Origin: Gammaproteobacteria bacterium
Lineage (GTDB): Bacteria > Pseudomonadota > Gammaproteobacteria > Thiotrichales > Thiotrichaceae
DNA length: 64,000 bases
Assembly: GCA_018822845.1 (NCBI GenBank)
Contig: JAHJJD010000049.1
Coordinates: forward strand, 1 to 64,000
Direction: 5' to 3'
The notes under the pieces are model-generated. The model had not been told where the DNA came from. It searched no databases and worked only from the letters and a program-made list of their open reading frames with translations. Shown in pieces: positions 3,760-52,504 of the stretch; within the stretch, counting starts at the first letter, position 1; each line of letters starts with the position of its first letter. Position numbers and translations under genes: made by a program.

Positions 3760-5097
3760 ATGCAAGCAGAACGCACTATCCTCACCGTATCCCAGCTCAA
3801 CAACGAAGTTGGCCAGCTACTGGCGCAAGGTTTCCCCGCCCTGTGGGTGGAAGGCGAAATTTCCAACTTCGTGCGTGCCGCTTCCGGCCACCTCTACTTC
3901 AGCCTGAAGGATGCTGGCGCGCAAGTCCGTTGCGCCATGTTCCGCAACCGCGCCATGTACATGCAGCTCGCCCCGCGCAATGGCCTGAAAATCATGGTGC
4001 GGGGCAAAGTCGGCCTGTATGAACCGCGTGGCGAATACCAGTTCATTATCGAGCACATGGAAGATGCAGGGATCGGTGCGCTGCAACGCCAGTTCGAGGA
4101 ACTCAAGCGCAAGTTGCAGGCACAAGGTCTGTTTGCCGGGGAACACAAAAAGCCCCTGCCCGCTTTTCCGCGCTGCATCGGCGTCATTACCTCACCAACC
4201 GGGGCAGCTATCCGTGACATCCTCAACGTGCTGAAACGCCGTTGCCCGCAGATTCCGGTCCTAGTCTTTCCAGTGCTGGTGCAAGGGGAAGGCTCCAAGG
4301 AACAGATCGTCAACGCCATCCGCCAGGCTGACCGGGAGCAACGCTGCGATGTGCTGATTCTGGCGCGTGGCGGCGGTTCCATCGAAGACCTGTGGTCGTT
4401 CAACGAGGAAATCGTTGCCCAGGCTGTCTACGCTTGCCAGACACCCATTATTAGCGGCGTGGGGCATGAAATCGATTTCACCATTGCCGATTTCGTCGCC
4501 GACATCCGTGCACCTACCCCATCCGCCGCTGCCGAACTGGTCAGCCCGGACATGGCTGCCCACCAAACCCATTTGCAGCGCCTGTTCCAGCAATTGCAAC
4601 GCAACCAGTTACGCAAAATACAACTGGCAGGCGAGCACCTGCTGCGCCTGCACCAACGGCTGGAAAACCAGCGCCCCACCAACCGCTTGCAGCAGAAAGC
4701 GCAACGCCTGGATGAGCTGGACATGCGCTTGCGCGCGGCTCTTGCCCGCAGCCTGCAACAACGCAGTGCACGGCTGGAAAACCTGCATGCCCGCCTGCAA
4801 ACCCAGTCCCCTGTCCGCCGGATTCGCCAGCAGCAGGAACAGCTTGCCCGCCTCCGCCAGCAACTGGCGCTGCGTATCAACCAGCAACTGGAAAAAGCCC
4901 GCAGCCGTTTACAGATGCAGGCAGGCCAATTGCAGGCGCTCAGCCCGCTGGCGACTCTGGAACGCGGTTACAGTATCGTGCGTAATGCGGAAACGGCCCA
5001 GCTCGTGCGTAGTACGGCAAGCCTGCGGCTGGGGCAAACGGTTGCCACCGAATTGATGGACGGCAGCTTCGAAAGCATCGTCACCCGCATCAACTAA
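3760..5097 (+). CDS. xseA: Exodeoxyribonuclease VII large subunit
   Basis: N-terminal OB fold LWVEGEISNFVRAASGHLYFSLKD; VITSPTGAAIRDIL; LARGGGSIEDLWSFNEE. Confidence 0.97.
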   Translation: MQAERTILTVSQLNNEVGQLLAQGFPALWVEGEISNFVRAASGHLYFSLKDAGAQVRCAMFRNRAMYMQLAPRNGLKIMVRGKVGLYEPRGEYQFIIEHMEDAGIGALQRQFEELKRKLQAQGLFAGEHKKPLPAFPRCIGVITSPTGAAIRDILNVLKRRCPQIPVLVFPVLVQGEGSKEQIVNAIRQADREQRCDVLILARGGGSIEDLWSFNEEIVAQAVYACQTPIISGVGHEIDFTIADFVADIRAPTPSAAAELVSPDMAAHQTHLQRLFQQLQRNQLRKIQLAGEHLLRLHQRLENQRPTNRLQQKAQRLDELDMRLRAALARSLQQRSARLENLHARLQTQSPVRRIRQQQEQLARLRQQLALRINQQLEKARSRLQMQAGQLQALSPLATLERGYSIVRNAETAQLVRSTASLRLGQTVATELMDGSFESIVTRIN

Positions 5098-7991: not shown

Positions 7992-10379
7992 TTAACGCAA
8001 CACCGCGCCCACTTCTTTTTGAAGTGAGGCAATGACTGCATCTACAATCCGGTTAATTTCCGCTTCCTCAAGAGTGCGCGAAAAATCCTGTAAAATCAAG
8101 CTTAAAGCGACACTTTTCTGTCCATCTGGTATTCCTTTGCCACTATAGACATCAAACAGATAATAGGACACCAGTTGCGGAATCGCTGTTTTTTTCACCG
8201 CATTTTCCAGTGCCACCGCCAATACATCCTGTTTTACCAGCAAAGCCAGATCACGGCGAATGGCCGGGAAACGGGAAATGGCCTGATACTTCGGCAAAGT
8301 CCGTTGCGTCAGTAACCCCAGATCCACTTCAAACAGGTAAACGGGTTGCTCCAGACCCAGTTTTTCCTCAATACGCGGATGCAAAGCACCCATCCAGCCA
8401 ACCACATCCCGTTGGGTCATGATTTCGGCTGACTGCCCCGGATGCAAGGCAGCATGGGCAACCGGCGCAAAATAAAATTGCGTACCCGTTACCTGCTCCA
8501 GCAAGGCTTCCACATCCCCTTTCAGGTCGTAGAAATCTACCGGACGGTTGGCTTGCCCCCATTGTTCAGGATAAAGATTACCCGTGATCATGCCGGAAAG
8601 CATGGTTCTCTGTTGCGGCTTGCCATCTGCATCCTGATGGAATGCAGGCCCGATTTCGAATAAACGCACCCGATATTGCTGACGGTTCAGATTATAGGCC
8701 ACAGAACGCAACAAGCCCGACCACAGTGTGCTGCGCATGACCCCGAGATCAGCAGAAATGGGGTTGGCCAGGGTAATATTGTCTGCTGTTGGTGCCAGCG
8801 TCAGCTCCATTTTCGGGTCGACAAAACTGAATGTCACCGCCTCCTGATAGCCACGCGCCACCAGCAGGTTGCGCAACCTGCCCTGCCCTACGGCAGTTTC
8901 GCTGGGTTGGGCGATCCGTGGCGCGCGCGCGCGCAGTTCCGCCGGAATCGAGTCGTAGCCACGTACACGCGCCAATTCCTCGATCAGGTCTTCTTCAATG
9001 GTCAGGTCGAAACGCGCCAGTGGAGCCTGCACCTGCCAGCCTGCATCGCTCTTGCTGAATTCGCAGTTGAGACGCGCCAGCACGCCTTCCACGCCAGCAT
9101 CATCCATTACAACACCAAGTACGCGGCGGATGCGTTCAGGGCGCAGCAGGATGGATTTGCGCTCCAGTACGCTGGCGTCCGCGCAGGTATCCACCAGCGG
9201 GCCAACTTCACCGCCGCAGATTTCCACGATCAGTTGGGTCGCGCGTTCCATCGCCTTAAACGGCATATCCGGGTCAACACCACGTTCGAAACGGGCGGCA
9301 GAATCAGTTTGCAAACCATAGCTGCGCGCCTTGCCCATGATTTTGGCCGGGCGGAAATGGGCGCTTTCCAGGAATACATTGCGGGTGGAAGCAGTTACGC
9401 AGGTCGGCTCACCACCCATGATGCCCGCCATCGCTACCGGCTTGGCAGCATCGGCAATCACCAGCGTATCGCTGCGCAGGGTGGCGGTTTGACCGTCAAG
9501 CATGACCAGCGTTTCGCCATCCCGCGCATAACGCACCACGATTCCGCCTTGCAGCGTGTCGAGATCGAAAGCGTGCATTGGCTGGCCGAGTTCCAGCAAT
9601 ACGTAGTTGGTCACATCAACCGTGGCGGAAATGCTGCGGATACCGGCGCGGCGCAGTTTTTCCTGCATCCACACTGGCGTTGGCGCTTGCGGATTGATGT
9701 TGCGGATAATGCGGCCTGCGTAACGCGGGCAGGCATCCGCCGCCTGAATGTCGACCGGGAAAGCGTCGTCATGATGGGCGGCTTGCGCAGGGATTTCCGG
9801 CACATGCAGCGGCACATCCATCACCAGGGCCGTTTCGCGCGCCACCCCGATCATGCTCATGCAGTCACCACGGTTGGCGGTGATCGCCAGCTCGATGACT
9901 TCATCATCCAGTTTCAGGTAGTTGCGGATATCCGCCCCGACAGGCGCGTCTTGCGGCAATTCCAGCAAACCGTCGGACTTGTCAGACATGCCCAGCTCAG
10001 TCGAGGAACACAGCATGCCAAAGGATTCGACCCCGCGCAGCTTGCCCTTCTTGATTTTCAGTTCCTTGCCATCCGGCAACGGCAGCACCGCACCGATCAG
10101 TGCCAGCGGCACCTTGATCCCGGCACGCACGTTTTGCGCACCGCAGACGATTTGCAAGGTTTCGCCCTGCCCGTTGTCGACCTTGCAGACGCTAAGCTTG
10201 TCGGCGTCCGGGTGCTTTTCACGTTCCAGCACATGGCCGACCACGATACCGGTGAAGGCGGTCGCCACCGGGTCACGCGCTTCCACTTCGCAGCCGGACA
10301 TGGTGAGCTTGTCGGCAATCGCATCCAGCGTTTGCGGGGTATCAATCCACTCACGCAGCCATTTTTCACTGACTTTCAT
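7992..10379 (-). CDS. pheT: Phenylalanyl-tRNA synthetase beta subunit
   Basis: MKVSEKWLREWIDTPQTLDAIADKLTMSGCEVE; 795 aa; adjacent to pheS. Confidence 0.98.
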   Translation of the reverse strand: MKVSEKWLREWIDTPQTLDAIADKLTMSGCEVEARDPVATAFTGIVVGHVLEREKHPDADKLSVCKVDNGQGETLQIVCGAQNVRAGIKVPLALIGAVLPLPDGKELKIKKGKLRGVESFGMLCSSTELGMSDKSDGLLELPQDAPVGADIRNYLKLDDEVIELAITANRGDCMSMIGVARETALVMDVPLHVPEIPAQAAHHDDAFPVDIQAADACPRYAGRIIRNINPQAPTPVWMQEKLRRAGIRSISATVDVTNYVLLELGQPMHAFDLDTLQGGIVVRYARDGETLVMLDGQTATLRSDTLVIADAAKPVAMAGIMGGEPTCVTASTRNVFLESAHFRPAKIMGKARSYGLQTDSAARFERGVDPDMPFKAMERATQLIVEICGGEVGPLVDTCADASVLERKSILLRPERIRRVLGVVMDDAGVEGVLARLNCEFSKSDAGWQVQAPLARFDLTIEEDLIEELARVRGYDSIPAELRARAPRIAQPSETAVGQGRLRNLLVARGYQEAVTFSFVDPKMELTLAPTADNITLANPISADLGVMRSTLWSGLLRSVAYNLNRQQYRVRLFEIGPAFHQDADGKPQQRTMLSGMITGNLYPEQWGQANRPVDFYDLKGDVEALLEQVTGTQFYFAPVAHAALHPGQSAEIMTQRDVVGWMGALHPRIEEKLGLEQPVYLFEVDLGLLTQRTLPKYQAISRFPAIRRDLALLVKQDVLAVALENAVKKTAIPQLVSYYLFDVYSGKGIPDGQKSVALSLILQDFSRTLEEAEINRIVDAVIASLQKEVGAVLR

Positions 10380-39319: not shown

Positions 39320-41020
39320 TCAGGTCTTGGGCAGTGTGACCCCGCGCTGCCCCTGATACTTGCCCCCCCGATCCCGGTAGGATGTGTCGCAAACTTCATC
39401 CGACTCGAAGAACAGCATTTGCGCCACGCCTTCGTTGGCGTAAATCTTCGCGGGTAACGGCGTCGTGTTGGAAAACTCCAGTGTTACATGCCCTTCCCAC
39501 TCCGGTTCCAGCGGCGTTACATTCACGATGATGCCGCAGTTATGTACAAAAACACCATCTTCCAGTGCAAAATTTCCTGCTTCTGGTACGGTCAGACAGA
39601 AAACGTCGTGATCACCGGGCACAGAGCGGACTGCTGTAACCTTATGGTTTTGTTTGCCTTCCTGCCGTACACCCCGAAATGCATCCAACACTTGTGGGAA
39701 ACGCCTGAATACTGCACGGTCACACTCCAGCAAACGGGCTGCCCCCCGGATTGAACCCGTCTGATGCAAGGCTTTACTCACGGCTTCCTCCGTTATTTCT
39801 CCGCGCAGGCGCAAATGACGGGCAATTTCAGCCTGACGCTGATGTCTGTCGGGGCTGGCCTGCTCCCAAACAGCTTTCATCCGTTCGCCTTGCCGCACCC
39901 GTTCTGCATAGTCCTGATAGCGGGCAAGCATCGCCTCACGATGTACCTGCCGCGTAGCATCGGAAGGATTGCGACGTGCAGCCAACAACTCCTCACGTTG
40001 CGCAGCATATACATCATCATGCCAAAACCGGCTGGCGCGTTCACTTTGCAAACTGGAGTAACGCTCCGCCCATTCCGGGTTCTGCATCCGCTCTTGCAAT
40101 GCAGCACGAATCGAGGCGCTATGCTCATCAGGATCAAACTCATCGCCATAGTTATCCGCATTATGCAGCCGGATATGCGCCTCAGCATCCATCCGCACAA
40201 TGTTCCACGGATTATTGTTCAGACGGTCAATATCAACATGATGGCGGTGGGTATTCGGCATATCAGCATACAAACCATGACGCAGGTTCCACTCGTCCGC
40301 CAGACGGTGCGTAGGATACAAATGCCCATTCAAGGGCTGGTATACCATCTCGTAACCTCGCGCCAACTGTCGATACAAGGGCATTAACGAAGCACCTGGC
40401 GTTAATTCACCGGCAGCCAGCCAACGGCCATCACGCAACATGAACAAATGGTCAGGTGTTGCAAAGATACTTTTCCCATTATCCAGCCCGACTTCAACCA
40501 GGCTATCACGCCCCACATAGCGGGGTGCATCCAGTTGAGTCACAATCAGGCGTCCATTGGCACCAATGCTATACCCCCAAAACAATTCACCTTGTTCGGC
40601 ACGTACCGCCATTTCTTCCAGGGGCAGTGAAGAGCCATCAACCAAGGCAACACGTGTATCTCCCCGGAAACAACGTGCATAAGTCGATTTACCGAGGCAA
40701 ACGGTCAGTACGCTGCGGGGAATGCGGAAATATTCCACCGTCCGCGCCAATGCAAACGAGTTGGGCGGAATGATGCACACATCGCCCTTGAAGTCGACGA
40801 AACTCTTTTCATCAAATGCCTTCGGGTCGACGATAGTGCTGTTGATATTGGTGAAAATCTTGAACTCGTTGGCACAACGCACGTCGTAGCCATAGCTGGA
40901 AGTGCCGTAGGATACGATCTTTTCCCCATTCATTGTGCGCACCTGTCCGTGCTCAAATGGCTCAATCATGCCCTCGTTTTCGGCCATGCGGCGAATCCAG
41001 TGGTCAGACTTGATACTCAT
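39320..41020 (-). CDS. dcd: dCTP deaminase precursor containing an intein
   Basis: Exteins [22 protein letters not shown]...LGKSTYAR / [31 protein letters not shown]...GVTLPKT rejoin to a 188-aa Dcd. Confidence 0.96.
39539..40672 (-). mobile_element. Intein (378 aa) with HNH homing endonuclease domain in Dcd
   Basis: Cys1 [13 protein letters not shown]; block [58 protein letters not shown]; block [26 protein letters not shown] followed by Cys+1. Confidence 0.95.
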
Positions 41021-42855: not shown

Positions 42856-45315
42856 ATGGCGATCAAGAAATCTGAACTGTATTCCTCCCTGTGGGCTTCC
42901 TGCGACGAACTGCGTGGCGGCATGGACGCCAGCCAGTACAAGGATTACGTCCTGTTCATGCTGTTCATCAAATACATCTCGGACAAATACGCCAATTCCG
43001 ATGACTTCGCCACGCCCGTGAGCATTCCCCAAGGTGGTAGCTTCGCCGACATGGTGAAGATGAAAGGCAGCATCGGCATTGGCGACAAGATCAACAAACA
43101 GGTGATCCAGCCGCTGGTTGAGGCCAATGCCCGCCTTGCCCGCACCGACTTCCCCGATTTCAACGACCCGAACAAGCTGGGGGAAGGCAAGGCGATGGTG
43201 GAACGCCTCACCAACCTGATCAGCATTTTCCAGAAGCCGGAGCTGGATTTCTCCAAAAACCGCGCCGACCACGACGACATTCTCGGTGATGCCTACGAGT
43301 ACCTGATGCGCCACTTTGCGCAGGATAGTGGTAAGAGCAAGGGGCAATTCTATACGCCGTCGGAAGTCAGCCGCATCATTGCCAAAGTCATCGGCATTTC
43401 ACCGCACAATGCGCTGGCGAACACCACGGCTTATGATCCGACTTGCGGTTCCGGCTCACTGCTGCTGAAAGTCGCGGCGGAAGCGGGCAAACGCATTACG
43501 CTGGAAGGTCAGGAAAAAGACGTAACCACCGCCGGTCTGGCGCGGATGAACATGATCCTGCACGATTTCCCGACCGCCAACATCCTCAACGGCAATACGT
43601 TGGCCGCACCCAAGTTCAGGGATGGCGAACGGCTCAAGACCTATGATTACGTGGTCGCCAATCCACCGTTTTCCGACAAGAGCTGGAGTACCGGGCTGAC
43701 ACCCGGCAATGACCCGTTCCAGCGCTTTGAATGGGGTGAGCCGCCTGCCAAACAGGGCGATTACGCCTACCTGCTGCATATCATCCGTTCGATGAAAAGC
43801 AGCGGCAAAGCGGCCTGCATCCTGCCGCACGGTGTGTTGTTCCGGGGCAATGCCGAGGCGGTGATCCGCAAAAAGCTGGTCGAATCCGGCTACCTGAAAG
43901 GGGTTATCGGCCTGCCTGCCAACCTGTTTTACGGCACGGGCATCCCCGCCTGCATTCTGGTGCTGGACAAGGAAAATGCCACCGCCCGCAAAGGCATTTT
44001 CATGCTGGATGCCGCCAAAGGCTTTATCAAGGATGGCAACAAAAACCGCCTACGCGAACAAGACATCCACCGCATCGTCGACACCTTTACCAAGCAAACC
44101 GACACGCCCCGCTATGCCCGCATGGTGGCACATGACGAAATCAGCGACCCGAAAAACGCTTACAACCTCAACCTGCCGCGCTACATCGACAGCACCGAGC
44201 CGGAAGATACCCAAGACATCACCGCCCACCTGCGCGGCGGCATTCCTGAGCCAGACATCAACGCACTGGCTGCCTATTGGCAAGTGCTGCCGACACTGCG
44301 GGCGGCCTTGTTCACCCCGACAGCGCAAGCAGGCTATGCCAAGCTGACCTTGCCAATTGCGCAAGTCAAACCCTTCATCTTGAACCATGCCGAGTTCACC
44401 GCCTTCAAAACCACGGTGACACGCAGCTTTGACGCATGGCGGGTAGACAACACCCCGCACTTGCAAGCCTTTGGCAAAGACGCACACCCCAAAGCCCTGA
44501 TCGACACGCTCGCCGAAGCTTTGTTGAATGCCTTTAAAGCCGCGCCCTTGCTGGATGCTTACGACGTGTACCAACACCTGATGGATTACTGGGCAGAAAC
44601 CATGCAGGACGATGCCTACCTGATTGCTGCCGATGGCTGGGTAGCCACCCCGCAACGCATCATCGACACCGACAAAAAAGGCAAAACCAAAGACAAAGGT
44701 TGGGCGTGTGACCTCATTCCCAAGCCGTATATCGTGGCGCGTTACTTTGCCGCGCAACAAACCGCATTGGAAGCCTTGCAAACCCAACTGGAAAGCGTCA
44801 CCGCGAACTTAAGCGAGTTGGAAGAAGAACACAGCGGCGAAGATGCTGCATTTTCCGGCTTCGAGAAAATCAACGCCGCCGCCATCAAAGACCGCCTCAA
44901 AGAGTTAAAAGCCGAACAAGGCGACTGGAAAGCGGCGGAAGAAGCCGTGCTGAACCAATGGCTAAAACTGAGCGGGCAAGAAGCCACCCTGAAAAAATCC
45001 ATCAAGGAAGCCGATGCCGCGCTGGATAAACTCGCTTATGAGAAATACCCCGCCCTGAGCGTGGCGGAAATCCAGACCTTGGTGATAGATGACAAATGGA
45101 TGGCAGCCCTGACCATCACCGTGCAAGGCGAACTCGATCGCGTCTCGCAAACCCTCACCACCCGCATCCGCGAACTTGCGGAACGCTACGCCACGCCGTT
45201 ACCGCAATTGGTGGAAGAGGTCGCGGGGTTGGCAGCGCGGGTCGATGCGCATTTGAAAAAGATGGGGGTTGACCATAATCCCAATCCCACCAATCCCCGT
45301 AGGGGCAATTCATGA
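42856..45315 (+). CDS. hsdM: Type I restriction-modification system DNA methyltransferase subunit
   Basis: LRGGMDASQYKDYVLFMLFIKYISDKY; DPTCGSGSLLLKVAAEAG; YDYVVANPPFSDKSWS. Confidence 0.97.
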   Translation: MAIKKSELYSSLWASCDELRGGMDASQYKDYVLFMLFIKYISDKYANSDDFATPVSIPQGGSFADMVKMKGSIGIGDKINKQVIQPLVEANARLARTDFPDFNDPNKLGEGKAMVERLTNLISIFQKPELDFSKNRADHDDILGDAYEYLMRHFAQDSGKSKGQFYTPSEVSRIIAKVIGISPHNALANTTAYDPTCGSGSLLLKVAAEAGKRITLEGQEKDVTTAGLARMNMILHDFPTANILNGNTLAAPKFRDGERLKTYDYVVANPPFSDKSWSTGLTPGNDPFQRFEWGEPPAKQGDYAYLLHIIRSMKSSGKAACILPHGVLFRGNAEAVIRKKLVESGYLKGVIGLPANLFYGTGIPACILVLDKENATARKGIFMLDAAKGFIKDGNKNRLREQDIHRIVDTFTKQTDTPRYARMVAHDEISDPKNAYNLNLPRYIDSTEPEDTQDITAHLRGGIPEPDINALAAYWQVLPTLRAALFTPTAQAGYAKLTLPIAQVKPFILNHAEFTAFKTTVTRSFDAWRVDNTPHLQAFGKDAHPKALIDTLAEALLNAFKAAPLLDAYDVYQHLMDYWAETMQDDAYLIAADGWVATPQRIIDTDKKGKTKDKGWACDLIPKPYIVARYFAAQQTALEALQTQLESVTANLSELEEEHSGEDAAFSGFEKINAAAIKDRLKELKAEQGDWKAAEEAVLNQWLKLSGQEATLKKSIKEADAALDKLAYEKYPALSVAEIQTLVIDDKWMAALTITVQGELDRVSQTLTTRIRELAERYATPLPQLVEEVAGLAARVDAHLKKMGVDHNPNPTNPRRGNS

Positions 45316-45326
45316 ATTGCCCCTAC
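45299..45326. repeat. Perfect 28-bp palindrome, copy 1
   Basis: gtaggggcaattcatgaattgcccctac. Confidence 0.97.
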
Positions 45327-45950
45327 AACATCGCTCTCAACACCAATGGCAACCACCGTTACAATCCCGATATTCACCATCGGAGAACAATTCGGCGGCG
45401 GGAATACGATTATTCACAACGGGGAGCGTATTTCATGACGATCTGCACTCGTGATCGTGAATGTTTATTTGGAGAGATTGTAAACGAGACCATGCATATG
45501 AATGAATATGGTCGGATCATTGCCGAGGAGTGGGCAGCGTTAACTGAAGTACAGGATGCAATTGAAATAGGGGAGTTTGTCGTGATGCCCAATCATTTTC
45601 ATGGCATCATCATTTTCACCGTCGATATTGATGATATTGACCATGTTGACCATACCGTAGGGGCAATTCATGAATTGCCCCTACAAGAACAACGTAGAAA
45701 GATGGCATTACCCAAGGTCATTGGACGGTTTAAAATGCGCTCTGCCAAACGTATCAATCTATGTCGCAACACAAGCGGCATACCTGTTTGGCAACGCAAT
45801 TATTACGAACATATCATTCGTGACCAAGCAGACTACACACGCATTGCCGAATACATTACCGACAATCCACGCCGCTGGGTGAATGATTCATTGCATCCCG
45901 ATAACGATAACATGTGTCCTCCCACCAATCCCCGTAGGGGCAATTCATGA
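45312..45950 (+). mobile_element. REP-associated tyrosine (RAYT, Y1/IS200-like) transposase
   Basis: IHHRRTIRRREYDYSQRGAYFMTICTRDRECLFGEI; HUH motif VVMPNHFHGIII; PVWQRNYYEHIIRDQADYTRIAEYITDNPRRW. Confidence 0.93.
45657..45684. repeat. Perfect 28-bp palindrome, copy 2 (inside the RAYT ORF)
   Basis: Identical to copy 1; encodes VGAIHELPL in frame. Confidence 0.97.
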
Positions 45951-45961
45951 ATTGCCCCTAC
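45934..45961. repeat. Perfect 28-bp palindrome, copy 3 (3' end of the RAYT ORF)
   Basis: Identical to copy 1; supplies the C-terminal RRGNS and stop. Confidence 0.97.
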
Positions 45962-46051
45962 AACACCACGCAGACCACCCACAACGGAAACATGCGTAAT
46001 CATCCCCACAACCCCATCCGCAACGGTGATATGTGTAATCTCCCCATCCCC

Positions 46052-46079
46052 GTAGGGGCAATTCATGAATTGCCCCTAC
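46052..46079. repeat. Perfect 28-bp palindrome, copy 4 (upstream of hsdS)
   Basis: Identical to copy 1. Confidence 0.97.
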
Positions 46080-46110
46080 AACACCACCATCACCGAAAGG
46101 GAGGCAAAGC

Positions 46111-47274
46111 ATGGAACTGAAAGTAGGCTACAAACAAACCGAAATCGGCATAATCCCCGAAGATTGGGAAGTCAAATCTATTGAGGAAATCACAACTCGT
46201 ATTGGCGATGGATTACATGGCACGCCATTATATTCATCTAACGGCGAGTACTTCTTTATTAATGGCAATAATATTTATGAAGGAAAAATCGTTGTTACTG
46301 ATGACACAAAGCTAGTTAGTCATGCAGAGTTTATTAAACATCGTAAACCCATCAATGAAACGACAATATTGATGTCAATCAATGGGACAATTGGTAATTT
46401 AGGCTTTTTTAATAATGAAGCATTAGTACTTGGAAAAAGTGCAGCATATTTAAATATTAATCAAAATATATCTAAAAATCTTATTTATTACTCACTTCAG
46501 ACCCATAGTACTAAACAGCAATTTCTTGATGGATTGACCGGATCAACAATAGGTAATCTCGGTTTAACAACAATTCGCCAAACACAAATTCCTCTACCAC
46601 CAACAAGAATCGAACAAACCGCCATCGCCTCCGCCCTCTCCGACATGGATGCCCTGCTGGACGGTCTTGACCGCCTCATCACCAAAAAGCGCAACCTCAA
46701 ACAAGCCGCCATGCAGCAGCTTCTCACGGGCAAAACTCGGTTAGCGGGGTTTGAGGGGGAGTGGGAGGTGAAGCGGTTGGGGGACTTGCTGACTATCTGT
46801 CATGGGAAAAGCCAGAAAGATGTTGAAACTATTGATGGTACTTACCCAATACTAGCTACTGGTGGGCAAATAGGTACAGCTTCACGCGCTCTTTATGATC
46901 AGCCATCGGTACTAATTGGACGCAAAGGCACAATTAATCAGCCTCAATATATGGATACACCATTTTGGACGGTAGATACTCTTTTCTATTCAATTTTGAA
47001 GAATAATAACAATGCAAAGTTTCTTTACTACCGCTTCTGTTTAATTGATTGGATGCAGTTCAATGAAGCATCTGGTGTTCCAAGTCTCAACGCTAGAACG
47101 ATTGAAAGCATAACCATTAAAACACCATTACCTGAAGAGCAAGAAGCGATTGCGGCGGTGCTTGCGGATATGGATGCGGAGATTGCGGCGTTGGAGCAGC
47201 GGCGCACGAAGACACGGGACATTAAGCAGGGGATGATGCAGGAGTTGCTGACGGGGAGGACGCGGCTGGTATGA
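46111..47274 (+). CDS. hsdS: Type I restriction-modification system specificity subunit
   Basis: Two TRD/conserved-helix repeats: IPEDWEVKSIEEITT ... EQTAIASALSDMDALLDGLDRLITKKRNLKQAAMQQLLTGKTRL and FEGEWEVKRLGDLL ... EQEAIAAVLADMDAEIAALEQRRTKTRDIKQGMMQELLTGRTRLV. Confidence 0.97.
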   Translation: MELKVGYKQTEIGIIPEDWEVKSIEEITTRIGDGLHGTPLYSSNGEYFFINGNNIYEGKIVVTDDTKLVSHAEFIKHRKPINETTILMSINGTIGNLGFFNNEALVLGKSAAYLNINQNISKNLIYYSLQTHSTKQQFLDGLTGSTIGNLGLTTIRQTQIPLPPTRIEQTAIASALSDMDALLDGLDRLITKKRNLKQAAMQQLLTGKTRLAGFEGEWEVKRLGDLLTICHGKSQKDVETIDGTYPILATGGQIGTASRALYDQPSVLIGRKGTINQPQYMDTPFWTVDTLFYSILKNNNNAKFLYYRFCLIDWMQFNEASGVPSLNARTIESITIKTPLPEEQEAIAAVLADMDAEIAALEQRRTKTRDIKQGMMQELLTGRTRLV

Positions 47275-47975
47275 ATACACCACAACCTAATGGCTACCAA
47301 ACATGGTTGACCGATGATCCTGAATTTGTGCAGCAGCCTGCTGCACGATTGCCGTGGTTTCATATTTGCACGGTCATGGACAGGTTGCCCATCGCCAGCA
47401 TGATCCCGGACGATGTGGAACGTGAATTACGCTCGCTCGACGAACTGGGGCGGGTGATTCTGATGCTTGCCCACCGTCTGGGTGAAATCAGCAATGAGGA
47501 CATCCAGCACTACCGGCGCGAACACCCCCGCGACATTGGCGTGCGCCTCAAACAACTGGTAACGGCAAACTGGCTGGAGAAAGCCGGGCATGGGCGCGGA
47601 ACCCGTTACCGTTTGCCCGTGCGGGTACAGGTGGATGGTGCATCCCCCGCCAACTCCGAACATTTGAGTGAAGACTCCGAACATTTAGGCAAAAGCTCCG
47701 AACATTTCGAGACTGAACAAGAATTGGCGTTGTTACAGATTGCAGAAAATGTGCGGAACAAACGCAAGGTTTCCAAACCCCTGATGGAAGCAACTATCCT
47801 CACCCTTTGTGCAGCGGATTGGCTGTCGCTGAAAATGTTGGCACATCTACTAAACCGCACCCCTGATTCCCTAAGAAACCACTACATTACGCCTATGTTG
47901 AGTGATGGTCGTTTGCAGGCACGGATGCCCGATAAACCTAATCATCCCAATCAGGCTTACAGGAAGGGGATATGA
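47271..47975 (+). CDS. R-M-associated winged-helix-like protein with SEHL linker repeats
   Basis: 4-nt overlap with hsdS; NSEHLSEDSEHLGKSSEHF; C-terminus LAHLLNRTPDSLRNHYITPMLSDGRLQARMPDKPNHPNQAYR resembles the C-terminal domain of AlbA_2 proteins. Confidence 0.7.
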   Translation: MNTPQPNGYQTWLTDDPEFVQQPAARLPWFHICTVMDRLPIASMIPDDVERELRSLDELGRVILMLAHRLGEISNEDIQHYRREHPRDIGVRLKQLVTANWLEKAGHGRGTRYRLPVRVQVDGASPANSEHLSEDSEHLGKSSEHFETEQELALLQIAENVRNKRKVSKPLMEATILTLCAADWLSLKMLAHLLNRTPDSLRNHYITPMLSDGRLQARMPDKPNHPNQAYRKGI

Positions 47976-49324
47976 ACGAACACCAAACCATCGAGTGGAA
48001 AGAAGTCTGGCGCGATGAATACCTGAAATGGATTTGCGGCTTTGCCAATGCGCAAGGCGGCACGCTGATTATCGGCAAGGATGACAACGGCAACACCACG
48101 GGGCTACCCAACGCCCGCAAATTGCTGGAAGACATCCCCAATAAAGTGCGCGACATCCTCGGCATCGTCGTTGACGTAAACCTGCACACCGAAAACCAGC
48201 GCGATTATCTCGCCATCGTGGTCGAAGCCCATCCCTACCCGGTGAGTTACAAAGGCGAATACCACTACCGCAGCGGCAGCACCAAACAGGAACTCAAAGG
48301 CGCGGCACTCGACGCTTTCCTGCTGAAAAAGCACGGTGTGCGTTGGGATGCAGTTCCCGTCCCCAATATCAGCCTCAAGGATTGCAGCCCGACCGCCTTC
48401 CAGCTTTTCCGCACCAAAGCCACCAAAAGCGGGCGCATGAGCGACGACGTGCTACACGACAACAATGAATCGCTGCTGGAAAACCTGCAACTGCACGACG
48501 GGCGTTACCTCAAACGCGCCACCACCCTGCTGTTTTACGACAAGCCCGAAAAATACGTTTCCGGCGCAACCATCAAGCTTGGCTTTTTCATCACTGACGA
48601 CGAATTGCGCTTTCAGGACGAAATCCACGGCAACCTGTTCCAGCAAGTCGATCAAACACTGGATACACTGTTTACCAAATACCTGAAAGCCCACATCAGC
48701 TACGAAGGCATCCAGCGGGTCGAACGCTTCCTGTTCCCGCCGCTTGCCCTGCGCGAAGCCCTGCTCAATGCCGTGGTACACAAGGACTACAGCAGCGGCA
48801 TCCCCATCCAGATCAGCGTCTACGAAGACCGGATTGTGTTCTGGAATTACGGACAACTCCCCGAACACTGGACGCTCGAACGCCTGCTGGGCAAACATCC
48901 TTCCAACCCATTCAACCCACTGATTGCCAATACCTTCTTCCGCTGTGGCTATATTGAGTCATGGGGTCGTGGTATCGAAAAGATCAACCGCGAATGCGAA
49001 AAGTGGGGCATCCCACCGCCTGAATACGATTACGGTATGTCGGGGCTGATGCTGACGTTTCGTGCCAACCCCGCACAATTGGCGGAATCACTGGGAAAAA
49101 TGTCGGTAAAAACGTCGGTAGAAACACCCAAAATGCCGGTAAAAACGCCCGAGCAAATACTGATAATCCTGGCGGAAGACTCCAGCCTGACACTGGCTGA
49201 AGTGGCTGAAAGGATTGGCAAAACCTTGCGTACCGTAGAGCGTGCAGCCACTAAACTGGTGAAAGCGGGGCGTTTGCGTTATGTAGGCCCGAAAAAAGGT
49301 GGTCATTGGGAGGTCATCGAATGA
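47972..49324 (+). CDS. AlbA_2/Schlafen-type putative ATP-binding DNA-binding protein
   Basis: TIEWKEVWRDEYLKWICGFANAQGGTLIIGKDDNGNTTGLPNARKLLEDIPNKVRDILG; C-terminal HTH. Confidence 0.9.
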   Translation: MNEHQTIEWKEVWRDEYLKWICGFANAQGGTLIIGKDDNGNTTGLPNARKLLEDIPNKVRDILGIVVDVNLHTENQRDYLAIVVEAHPYPVSYKGEYHYRSGSTKQELKGAALDAFLLKKHGVRWDAVPVPNISLKDCSPTAFQLFRTKATKSGRMSDDVLHDNNESLLENLQLHDGRYLKRATTLLFYDKPEKYVSGATIKLGFFITDDELRFQDEIHGNLFQQVDQTLDTLFTKYLKAHISYEGIQRVERFLFPPLALREALLNAVVHKDYSSGIPIQISVYEDRIVFWNYGQLPEHWTLERLLGKHPSNPFNPLIANTFFRCGYIESWGRGIEKINRECEKWGIPPPEYDYGMSGLMLTFRANPAQLAESLGKMSVKTSVETPKMPVKTPEQILIILAEDSSLTLAEVAERIGKTLRTVERAATKLVKAGRLRYVGPKKGGHWEVIE

Positions 49325-49378
49325 CCACAAACCTCCCAACCACCGCCGTAGGGGCGAATACCAACCAAGGATTTGCCA

Positions 49379-52300
49379 ATGCCTGACCAAACCCGCCCGG
49401 AACGCCACACCCAAAACCGAGTAGTCCAACTGTTCACCGACCAGAACCACCCTGACTGGCTGGGCTACCGCTACCTCGGCGACTGGCACAAACGCACCAA
49501 CAACCGCCCTCTTGAAGCGGAATTGTTACAGGCCAACCTGAAACAACGCGGCTATTCCGATGCTCACATTGCCGCCGCCCTGACCAAACTGGAAACCGCC
49601 GCCGATACCACCGGCATCACGCTCTATCAGGCCAACCTGCGCATCTACCAGTTGCTACGCTACGGCATCCCGCTACAAATAGCTGTCGGGCAAGCCCATG
49701 AAACCGTCCACCTGATCGACTGGGACACACCCAAAAACAATGATTTCGCCCTCGCTGAAGAAGTCACCCTCAAAGGTGGCGCAGAACGCCGCCCCGATAT
49801 AGTCCTCTACCTCAACGGCATCGCCATCGCCGTGATTGAGCTGAAACGCGGCTCGGTTGAAGTCACCGACGCCATCCGCCAGCTTGTCAGCAATCAGGAA
49901 AAGATTTTCAACGAAGGCTTTTTCAGCACCGTGCAATTCGTGTTCGCTGGTAACGACTCACAAGGTTTGTACTACGGCACAACCGGCACAGCAGAAACGT
50001 ATTTCCTGGCATGGAAAGACGAAACCGGCAGCATCAACGCCCCCGCCTCCGGTGAATTGCTGGACAAACCGTTGGCGCAACTGTGCCACCCCGTCCGCCT
50101 GCTTGACCTGATGCGTAACTTCATCATCTTTGACGGAGGCATCAAGAAAGTCCCGCGCCCGCACCAGTTTTTCGGCATCAAGGCCGCACAGGAACGCATC
50201 CGCCAACGTGAAGGCGGCTACATCTGGCACACGCAAGGCAGCGGCAAGAGCATCCTGATGGTACTGCTGGCGAAATGGATCATGGAACACGACCCCGACG
50301 CCCGCATCCTGGTCATCACCGACCGCGACGAACTCGACAAGCAGATCGAAGGCGTGATGCGCAATGCGGGTGTCATCGGCGAGGAAGCAGCCTCCCCACG
50401 CATTACTTCCCGCGCCCAGTTCCTTGAAAAACTGACTTCTACCACCCCGCGCCTGCTGTGCGCCCTGATCCACAAATTCGAGCCAGACCTCAAGGGCGCA
50501 GTACCGCGCATCCATGGGCGCTTTTACGTCTTCGTCGATGAATGTCATCGCACCCAGGGCGGCGACATGAACCAGCAAATGAAACAGCGCTGGCTGAAAG
50601 ACGCCATTTTCATCGGCTTCACTGGCACGCCGTTGTTACGCAAGGAAAAGAAAACCACTGAGGCTGTCTTCGGTACGCCGATCCACAGCTACAAGTTCCA
50701 TCAGGCCGTCGCCGACAAGGTAGTGCTGGATTTGAAGTACGAAGCCCGTGACGTACCGCAACGCCTGACCACGCAAAAAGCCGTAGATCGCTGGTTTGAT
50801 CAGGCCACCAGAAATCTCAACAACTTCCAGAAAGCCGTGTTGCGCAAACGCTGGGCGAACATGGAAAAGCTGATGAGCGCCAAGGAACGCAAGGAGCGCA
50901 TCATCGCCAGCATTATTGAGGATTTCAGCCTCAAGACCCGCCTCAACAATGACCGGGGCACGGCGATTCTGGTGGCGGCCTCCATCTACGACGCCTGCCA
51001 CTATTTCCGCCTGTTGCAGAACATGCCTTTTGGCAAGCATTGCGGCATCATCACCTCCTACGAACCCAATGCCAACGCGGTTTCCAAAGAGCCGAAAGAC
51101 AGCGACGAACGCTATAAGTACGACACCTACCAACAGTATGTGCTAAAGGATTTTGCCAGCACCGACAAATACGAGACGGAAATCAAGCGTCGCTTCATCC
51201 ATGAGCCTGCCAACTGCAAACTGCTGATCGTGGTCAGCAAACTGCTGACGGGTTTCGATGCACCTTCCTGCACCTATATTTATCTGGATAACGAACTGCA
51301 CGACCACAACCTGTTCCAGGCCATTTGCCGCACCAACCGTCTGGACGGCGACGACAAGGATTACGGTTACATCGTCGACTTCAAGGAACTGTTCGGCGAC
51401 GTACAGGAAGCGATTGCCGTCTACAGCTCCGACGAACTGGAGCCGGACGAAAACGGCGGCACGGAGGGCAACAACGTCAAGCTCAAGGACTGGCTGCAAG
51501 AGGGCCGGAAACAACTGGATGCTGCCCGTGAAGCCCTGCAATACCTGTGCGAACCCGTAGCGCAACCGCGCCAACTGGAGCAATACCTGCACTATTTCTG
51601 CGGCAACGCCAGTAACCCCGAAGCCCTGAACGAAACCGAAGCGCTGCGCATCCCGTTCTACAAGGCGGTGGCAATGTTTATCCGCGCTTTCGCAGCCATT
51701 TCCCAGCACCTTGCCGAGGCAGGCTACCCGGCGGGTGAAATTGCCCGCCTGAACAGCGAGGTCGGCTTCTTTAGCGAGATTCGCGCCGCCATCAAGCATT
51801 ATTCCGGCGAAGAGATGGATACCAAGCCCTATGAAGCGGACATGCGTCACCTCATCAACACCTACATCCAGGCTGACCCAGCTGATCCGCTGGGCGCAAT
51901 CGACCAATACTCACTGGTGGAATTGATCGTCGAAACCGGCATCCACGACGCCATCGCCCGCAAGCTCAACGAAAAAGGCAAGCTGTCGAAGAATGCCGTC
52001 GCCGAGAGCATCATCAACAACATCCGCAAAACCATCATCCGCAACCAGCTCACTGACCCGCGTTTCTACGCACAGATGTCCAAACTGCTGGATGACCTGA
52101 TCAAACAGCAGCGCGATGATGCGGCATCCTATGAGGAATTCCTCAAAAAAGCCGAAGACCTGATCAAGCAGCAGGCGCAAGGCCAGACCAGCGAGGCCAT
52201 TCCCGCCGAATTGCAGGGCAAGCGCGAAGCCATTGTTATCTATAATAACCTGCCGGACATCCTCGCCAGCATTCAATCCGGGGACAAATCCAGCGAAACT

Positions 52301-52504
52301 CCCCACCCGGAATACGGTAACACCCGTGCTACGCTGGCGCTGAAAATAGACCGCACCATGCGCGAACACGCCCCGGCAAGCTGGCGCGGCGACGAAGCGC
52401 GGGAAAGCCAGGTGCTGAACGCATTGTTCCGCGTCATGAACAAAAACCGTGAAGCCACCAGAGCGCTGTTCGACATCATCAAAAACATGCACGGCTACGA
52501 ATGA
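49379..52504 (+). CDS. hsdR: Type I restriction-modification system endonuclease/translocase subunit
   Basis: [28 protein letters not shown] nuclease motif; [39 protein letters not shown]. Confidence 0.97.

Follow-up and report, generated by a model that had tools for sequence, protein, structure and literature searches.

A RAYT gene and its double-foot palindromes at the hsdM/hsdS junction of a type I restriction-modification operon

Introduction

RAYTs, also termed TnpA-REP, are encoded by widespread, usually low-copy genes whose benefit to the host is not settled. According to Quentin et al. 2018 (PMC6006769), TnpA-REP subclass 2.4 is characterized by double-foot REPs and by a REP carried in frame in the gene itself, as a rule between the sequences encoding the HUH and Tyr motifs, and W-Q-E-H-R residues are linked to recognition of GTAG. 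Cognate REPs dispersed in the genome are usual but not required, and REPtrons without a corresponding REP family have been reported (PMC3733652). In type I restriction-modification (R-M) systems, translational coupling of hsdM and hsdS is documented for EcoKI (PMC3510504). The window analysed here, the whole stretch of 64,000 nucleotides, contains a RAYT located within a type I R-M operon. A RAYT with double-foot REPs and an in-frame internal REP is a described type; the empty site, the operon junctions made by palindromes and the recurrent association with type I R-M genes reported below go beyond that description.

Results and Discussion

The hsd operon of the window is of type I by sequence, with intact and co-directional hsdR, hsdM and hsdS genes. 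All are on the + strand: hsdM (42856..45315, methyltransferase subunit; N6_Mtase 1e-95, HsdM_N; PADLOC MTase_I), hsdS (46111..47274, specificity subunit; Methylase_S 8.9e-40) and hsdR (49373..52504, restriction subunit; HSDR_N, SWI2_SNF2; PADLOC REase_I). Two cargo genes, also +, lie between hsdS and hsdR, one encoding a Fic-like C-terminal-domain protein (47271..47975, 4-nt overlap with hsdS) and the other a Schlafen/AlbA_2-domain protein (47972..49324, 4-nt overlap with the Fic-like gene). A preliminary description of this DNA had placed a RAYT gene between hsdM and hsdS, and an ORF encoding a 212-aa HUH Y1 nuclease is indeed found there, in the same direction, at 45312..45950. Elsewhere in the window, a dCTP deaminase ORF (39320-41020) contains an in-frame intein-like domain (Pfam Intein_splicing 4.8e-13).

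The assignment of this protein as a RAYT is based on motifs, profiles, an alignment and a structural model. It has HFH at residues 95-97, a YITDNP motif in which Tyr 181 is, from the alignment, the presumed catalytic residue, and a conserved WQ..YEH..R region; the HUH motif with a single catalytic Tyr in a Y---NP context defines a class 2 RAYT. The match to NCBIfam NF047646 (REP_Tyr_transpos) has an E-value of 2.4e-18 and 66.4 of the 80 bits required by the curated cut-off, Pfam Y1_Tnp also falls just under its cut-off, and a profile of the RAYT family matches TnpA-REP in the PDB (4er8) weakly (1.4e-6 over 32 positions). The AlphaFold model (pLDDT 78.7) has the strand and helix order of the family, and the stretches derived from palindromes (the N-terminus, residues ~116-124 and the C-terminus) fall within its low-confidence parts; the second of these, VGAIHELPL, is modelled as a loop that separates HUH from Tyr. 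Palindromes with GTAG feet flank the gene (copies 1, 3 and 4 below). With a double-foot REP and an in-frame REP between HUH and Tyr, the RAYT has the features of TnpA-REP subclass 2.4, an assignment by features and not by tree position. An IS200/IS605 insertion sequence was considered and rejected, as the genome has one copy and one 46% identical relative and not multiple near-identical copies that move as a unit with subterminal hairpins, and PADLOC does not match the RAYT to any listed defence gene. The relative (G000:C101:6979-7566, locus L148) appears, from the sizes of flanking ORFs, to be in the same place in three other genomes (G001, G009 and G010), consistent with vertical retention, unlike the RAYT in the hsd operon.

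Four exact copies of a 28-mer, GTAGGGGCAATTCATGAATTGCCCCTAC, each a perfect palindrome, are present in the window at 45299..45326 (copy 1), 45657..45684 (copy 2), 45934..45961 (copy 3) and 46052..46079 (copy 4), precisely where the preliminary description had located them. Allowing up to 3 mismatches, the window contains no further site (shuffles predict 0) and nor does the rest of the genome (3,999,244 bases in 130 contigs, 99% complete), and a loosened search for GTAGGGGC-N(0-24)-GCCCCTAC added just three sites, each single and none with this core. The 28-mer is therefore not scattered genome-wide, and such scattering was what would have spoken against its proposed pairing with the RAYT; the view that these are the cognate REP palindromes of the RAYT is supported by all four genomic copies being at that gene. 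With four copies only, a genome-wide family of intergenically dispersed REPs is rejected; the genomes that host relatives of this RAYT have 0-94 copies of this class of palindrome. Three other genomes of the genus each have one exact copy, apparently by sequence in the same place, between pyruvate kinase- and phosphoglycerate kinase-like genes (in two of these genomes the listed ORFs include the one for pyruvate kinase), and the palindrome is thus old in the genus, though not abundant.

Clustering of the palindromes around the RAYT had been recognized, but not that copies 1 and 3 hold start and stop codons or that copy 2 is inside the ORF. One reading frame of the palindrome is open and encodes VGAIHELPL, a second has TAG followed by an ATG (MNCPY), and the third reads RGNS-TGA. 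hsdM enters copy 1 in the RGNS-TGA frame and terminates at the TGA at 45313-45315, which overlaps the RAYT ATG (45312), the first start codon in the RAYT open frame. Copy 2 is read in frame within the RAYT gene as VGAIHELPL. In copy 3, the TGA and ATG have the same arrangement, with the RAYT stop codon overlapping the start of a predicted 57-codon mini-ORF (MNCPYN...VGAIHELPLQHHHHRKGGKAWN; 45947..46120, +). Copy 4, which precedes hsdS by 31 bp, is read by this mini-ORF in the VGAIHELPL frame, and the end of the mini-ORF (...AWN-TGA, 46120) overlaps hsdS within the former hsdM/hsdS overlap, ATGGAACTGA. The window thus has three stop/start overlaps where an empty hsdM/hsdS junction has one. Stop or start codons inside palindromes also occur, at one or other end, in three loci of RAYT relatives (L034, L049 and L011). 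Copy 1 is predicted to fold into a hairpin with a 12-bp stem and a CAUG loop (-20 kcal/mol, z -5.1), placing the AUG in the loop and AGGGG within the stem. Transcription terminators were rejected as an explanation of the palindromes, which have no following U-run, and there is no terminator-like match on the + strand of the cassette.

The preliminary description had proposed comparing hsd loci with and without the RAYT, and a sister genome (G003, ~95% DNA identity) provides the empty site, at the hsdM/hsdS overlap. Based on blastn and junction sequences, an 839-bp cassette (45272..46110, +) is absent from G003, in which only GT separates flanks that match those of the cassette. In G003, the end of hsdM (92% protein identity) overlaps the start of hsdS by 10 nt (...GGGGGTTGTATGGAACTGA...), and an overlap of this type, GTGGAAGTGA, is also present in a more distant genome (G048). 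HsdM ends ...KMGVVWN in G003 and has DHNPNPTNPRRGNS in place of VWN in the window, and the earlier statement that no hsd frame was destroyed therefore holds for the integrity of the operon but not in the sense that hsdM is unchanged. hsdS has the same start codon as in the empty-site strain, has its own GGGAGG ahead of this ATG, and has no REP inside. The insertion in the window has neither a target-site duplication nor any other sign that a unit had transposed, and the cassette may thus have been brought in by homologous recombination, perhaps along with a different first target-recognition domain of hsdS. This domain (46172-46612 in the window) cannot be aligned with its G003 counterpart, and its flanks are 93-98% identical. 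A plasmid source was sought, with no match to the cassette among 72,556 plasmid records. The hsdM/hsdS junction is a site for cargo, as in another sister genome (G004, L142:3592-4716) it is occupied by a different gene, encoding 374 aa with no Pfam or PADLOC match, that has a 4-nt overlap with the hsdM stop and, after it, a single palindrome of a different core. The empty-site operon of G003 (L141) has DarT- and DarG-like genes, so named by sequence, between hsdS and hsdR (8017-9702).

We consider it probable that a REPtron with subclass 2.4 features entered the hsdM/hsdS junction as the 839-bp cassette and has been kept as a translationally integrated passenger. A ribosome leaving hsdM would stop at a TGA that overlaps the new ATG, with AGGGG preceding within the hairpin, and an AUG in the loop with AGGGG in the stem would suit opening of the hairpin by a ribosome arriving from upstream. 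If the palindrome ATG does serve as a start codon, ribosomes could be relayed through the overlaps from hsdM to the RAYT, the mini-ORF and then hsdS, keeping hsdS expressed. By analogy with E. coli TnpA-REP, the RAYT may nick and rejoin single-stranded palindromes. Its maintenance would presumably depend on riding horizontally moving R-M operons and not on a role in restriction.

Among the 80 best matches to the RAYT from one scan of 85,462 species genomes, the commonest class of neighbour is type I R-M genes. This sample was ordered by resemblance to a RAYT lying in an R-M operon itself, and may be enriched in RAYTs closely similar to the query. With local HMMs, hsdR, hsdM or hsdS was found within 3 kb of the RAYT in 17 of these 80, from many phyla, and in all 17 the hsd genes are on the strand of the RAYT. 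The gene orders include R-RAYT-S (L052, L072, L075), R-RAYT-S-M (L035), M-Fic-RAYT-S-R (L024), S-RAYT-R with other genes between (L034, L039) and R-RAYT-M (L067), and searches of the genus and phylum added two complete operons, both M-S-RAYT-R (G008 and G203; loci L140 and L150). RAYT and hsd genes overlap by 4 nt in L060, L071, L072 and L150. In L029, hsdS and the RAYT are separated by a reverse transcriptase gene (RVT_1; 1292-2821), and this gene is bracketed by a 63-bp repeat that extends into the hsdS 3′-end. No description of a recurrent link between RAYTs and type I R-M across phyla was found in the literature searched, which was mostly non-subscription and included the text of PMC6006769.

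It has to be asked whether an ordinary REPtron simply landed here by chance, with the R-M association reflecting no more than the usual exchange of genes in defence islands. The hsd operons of the genus do swap cargo, as with the 374-aa gene of G004 and the different genes found between hsdS and hsdR in G003, and most of the RAYT relatives have non-defence neighbours. However, hsdS is within 3 kb in 11 of 50 loci against at most 0.27 expected from the hsdS content of the host genomes themselves, an excess of about 41-fold (Poisson P about 1e-14), and canonical RAYTs have no such link, with hsd genes at none of 36 loci, all from the phylum of the window, for the same flank (Fisher P 0.0013). 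A chance landing is therefore improbable. A single origin of the association is not favoured either. On a RAYT tree built without the palindrome columns, it requires 15 changes (one of them spurious, as the window is represented by two entries, of which L098 bears the label 'no'), at least 8 of which are forced by well-supported branches, and the shuffled mean is 18.4; the association is scattered with slight clustering. The data do not separate hitchhiking, target preference and function.

The internal palindrome is a general feature, present in the RAYT gene in 66 of 81 loci (the 80 relatives and the window) and read in two different frames among lineages. Of the 41 loci that have an internal as well as a flanking copy, 31 have identical half-cores in the two, as compared with 6.8% of cross-locus pairs, a comparison that also reflects common descent as related RAYTs share cores; 0 of 5000 permutations were as low. 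Palindromes are also found within hsd genes. In L052 and L075, a REP doublet of ~112 bp is present upstream of the RAYT, in frame within it and downstream of it, and again in the reading frame of hsdS, ahead of the second recognition domain. Single in-frame palindromes occur in hsdS of L027, L037 and L072, hsdR of L072 and hsdM of L035. L010 has a 132-bp repeat of a REP and the hsdS 5′-end, and in L035 82 bp from the hsdR 3′-end recur as direct repeats flanking the RAYT cassette (2746-2827 and 3806-3887). The L010 repeat and the REPs in hsdS of L027, L037, L052, L072 and L075 are suggestive, but only suggestive, of palindromes acting as recombination sites beside hsdS, a role raised in the preliminary description.

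Such sequences could point to a functional partnership between the RAYT and type I R-M, with HUH activity and palindromes diversifying hsdS and so changing specificity, by REPs entering the spacer between the target-recognition domains and hsdS ends being duplicated or shuffled. The REP peptides and doublets in HsdS, several just before the second recognition domain, the L010 repeat and the difference in the first HsdS domain between the window and G003 are all in agreement with this. However, hsdS domains also vary in type I systems that lack RAYTs, and the window hsdS has no REP. REPs are also present in other neighbouring genes, 19 in 269 kb as compared with 9 in 73 kb of hsd genes (doublets excluded), a modest difference in counts that include small dubious ORFs, and many genes are known to contain REPs in frame (PMC3733652). 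We regard such a partnership as distinctly improbable. The broader proposal, that this RAYT lineage is a recurrent type I R-M accessory in many phyla, wired into translation by its palindromes, which remodel hsdS and change specificity, is tentative and unlikely to hold in full. That the RAYT and palindromes form a regulatory device, the hairpin hiding the RAYT start and lowering hsdS output relative to hsdM, would fit the position of the AUG in the hairpin loop and that of AGGGG in its 12-bp stem, but is very improbable given that hsdS retains its own GGGAGG and that palindrome positions relative to hsdS vary among other R-M loci.

For a passenger integrated through translation, a 28-bp palindrome that provides a stop codon, a sequence resembling a ribosome-binding site and a start codon suggests how an operon with overlapping genes might be entered without silencing the gene downstream, and the repeated, phylogenetically scattered link to type I operons provides a concrete setting in which to ask what RAYTs do.

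Comparison with known systems

Subclass 2.4 REPtrons, as described in PMC6006769, are like this locus in their double-foot REPs (GTAG...CTAC), flanking REPs, in-frame REP between HUH and Tyr, and wide but patchy taxonomic spread. They differ in that the REP of the window is not dispersed in the genome, and the available text of that paper makes no mention of restriction genes, hsd association or stop and start codons made by REPs. E. coli TnpA-REP (PDB 4er8) shares the HUH Y1 fold and the W-Q-E-H-R region linked to GTAG recognition but belongs to another subclass, with weak profile similarity, and the canonical RAYTs tested were without R-M neighbours. Di Nocera et al. 2013 (PMC3733652) documented in-frame REPs that decorate proteins, some at gene ends, whereas the relatives of the RAYT described here include cases with REP-bearing hsdS and hsdR next to the RAYT. 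In EcoKI (PMC3510504), as in the window, a stop codon overlaps the start of the following gene, hsdM with hsdS, but here two further overlaps, both made by palindromes, have been placed in between.
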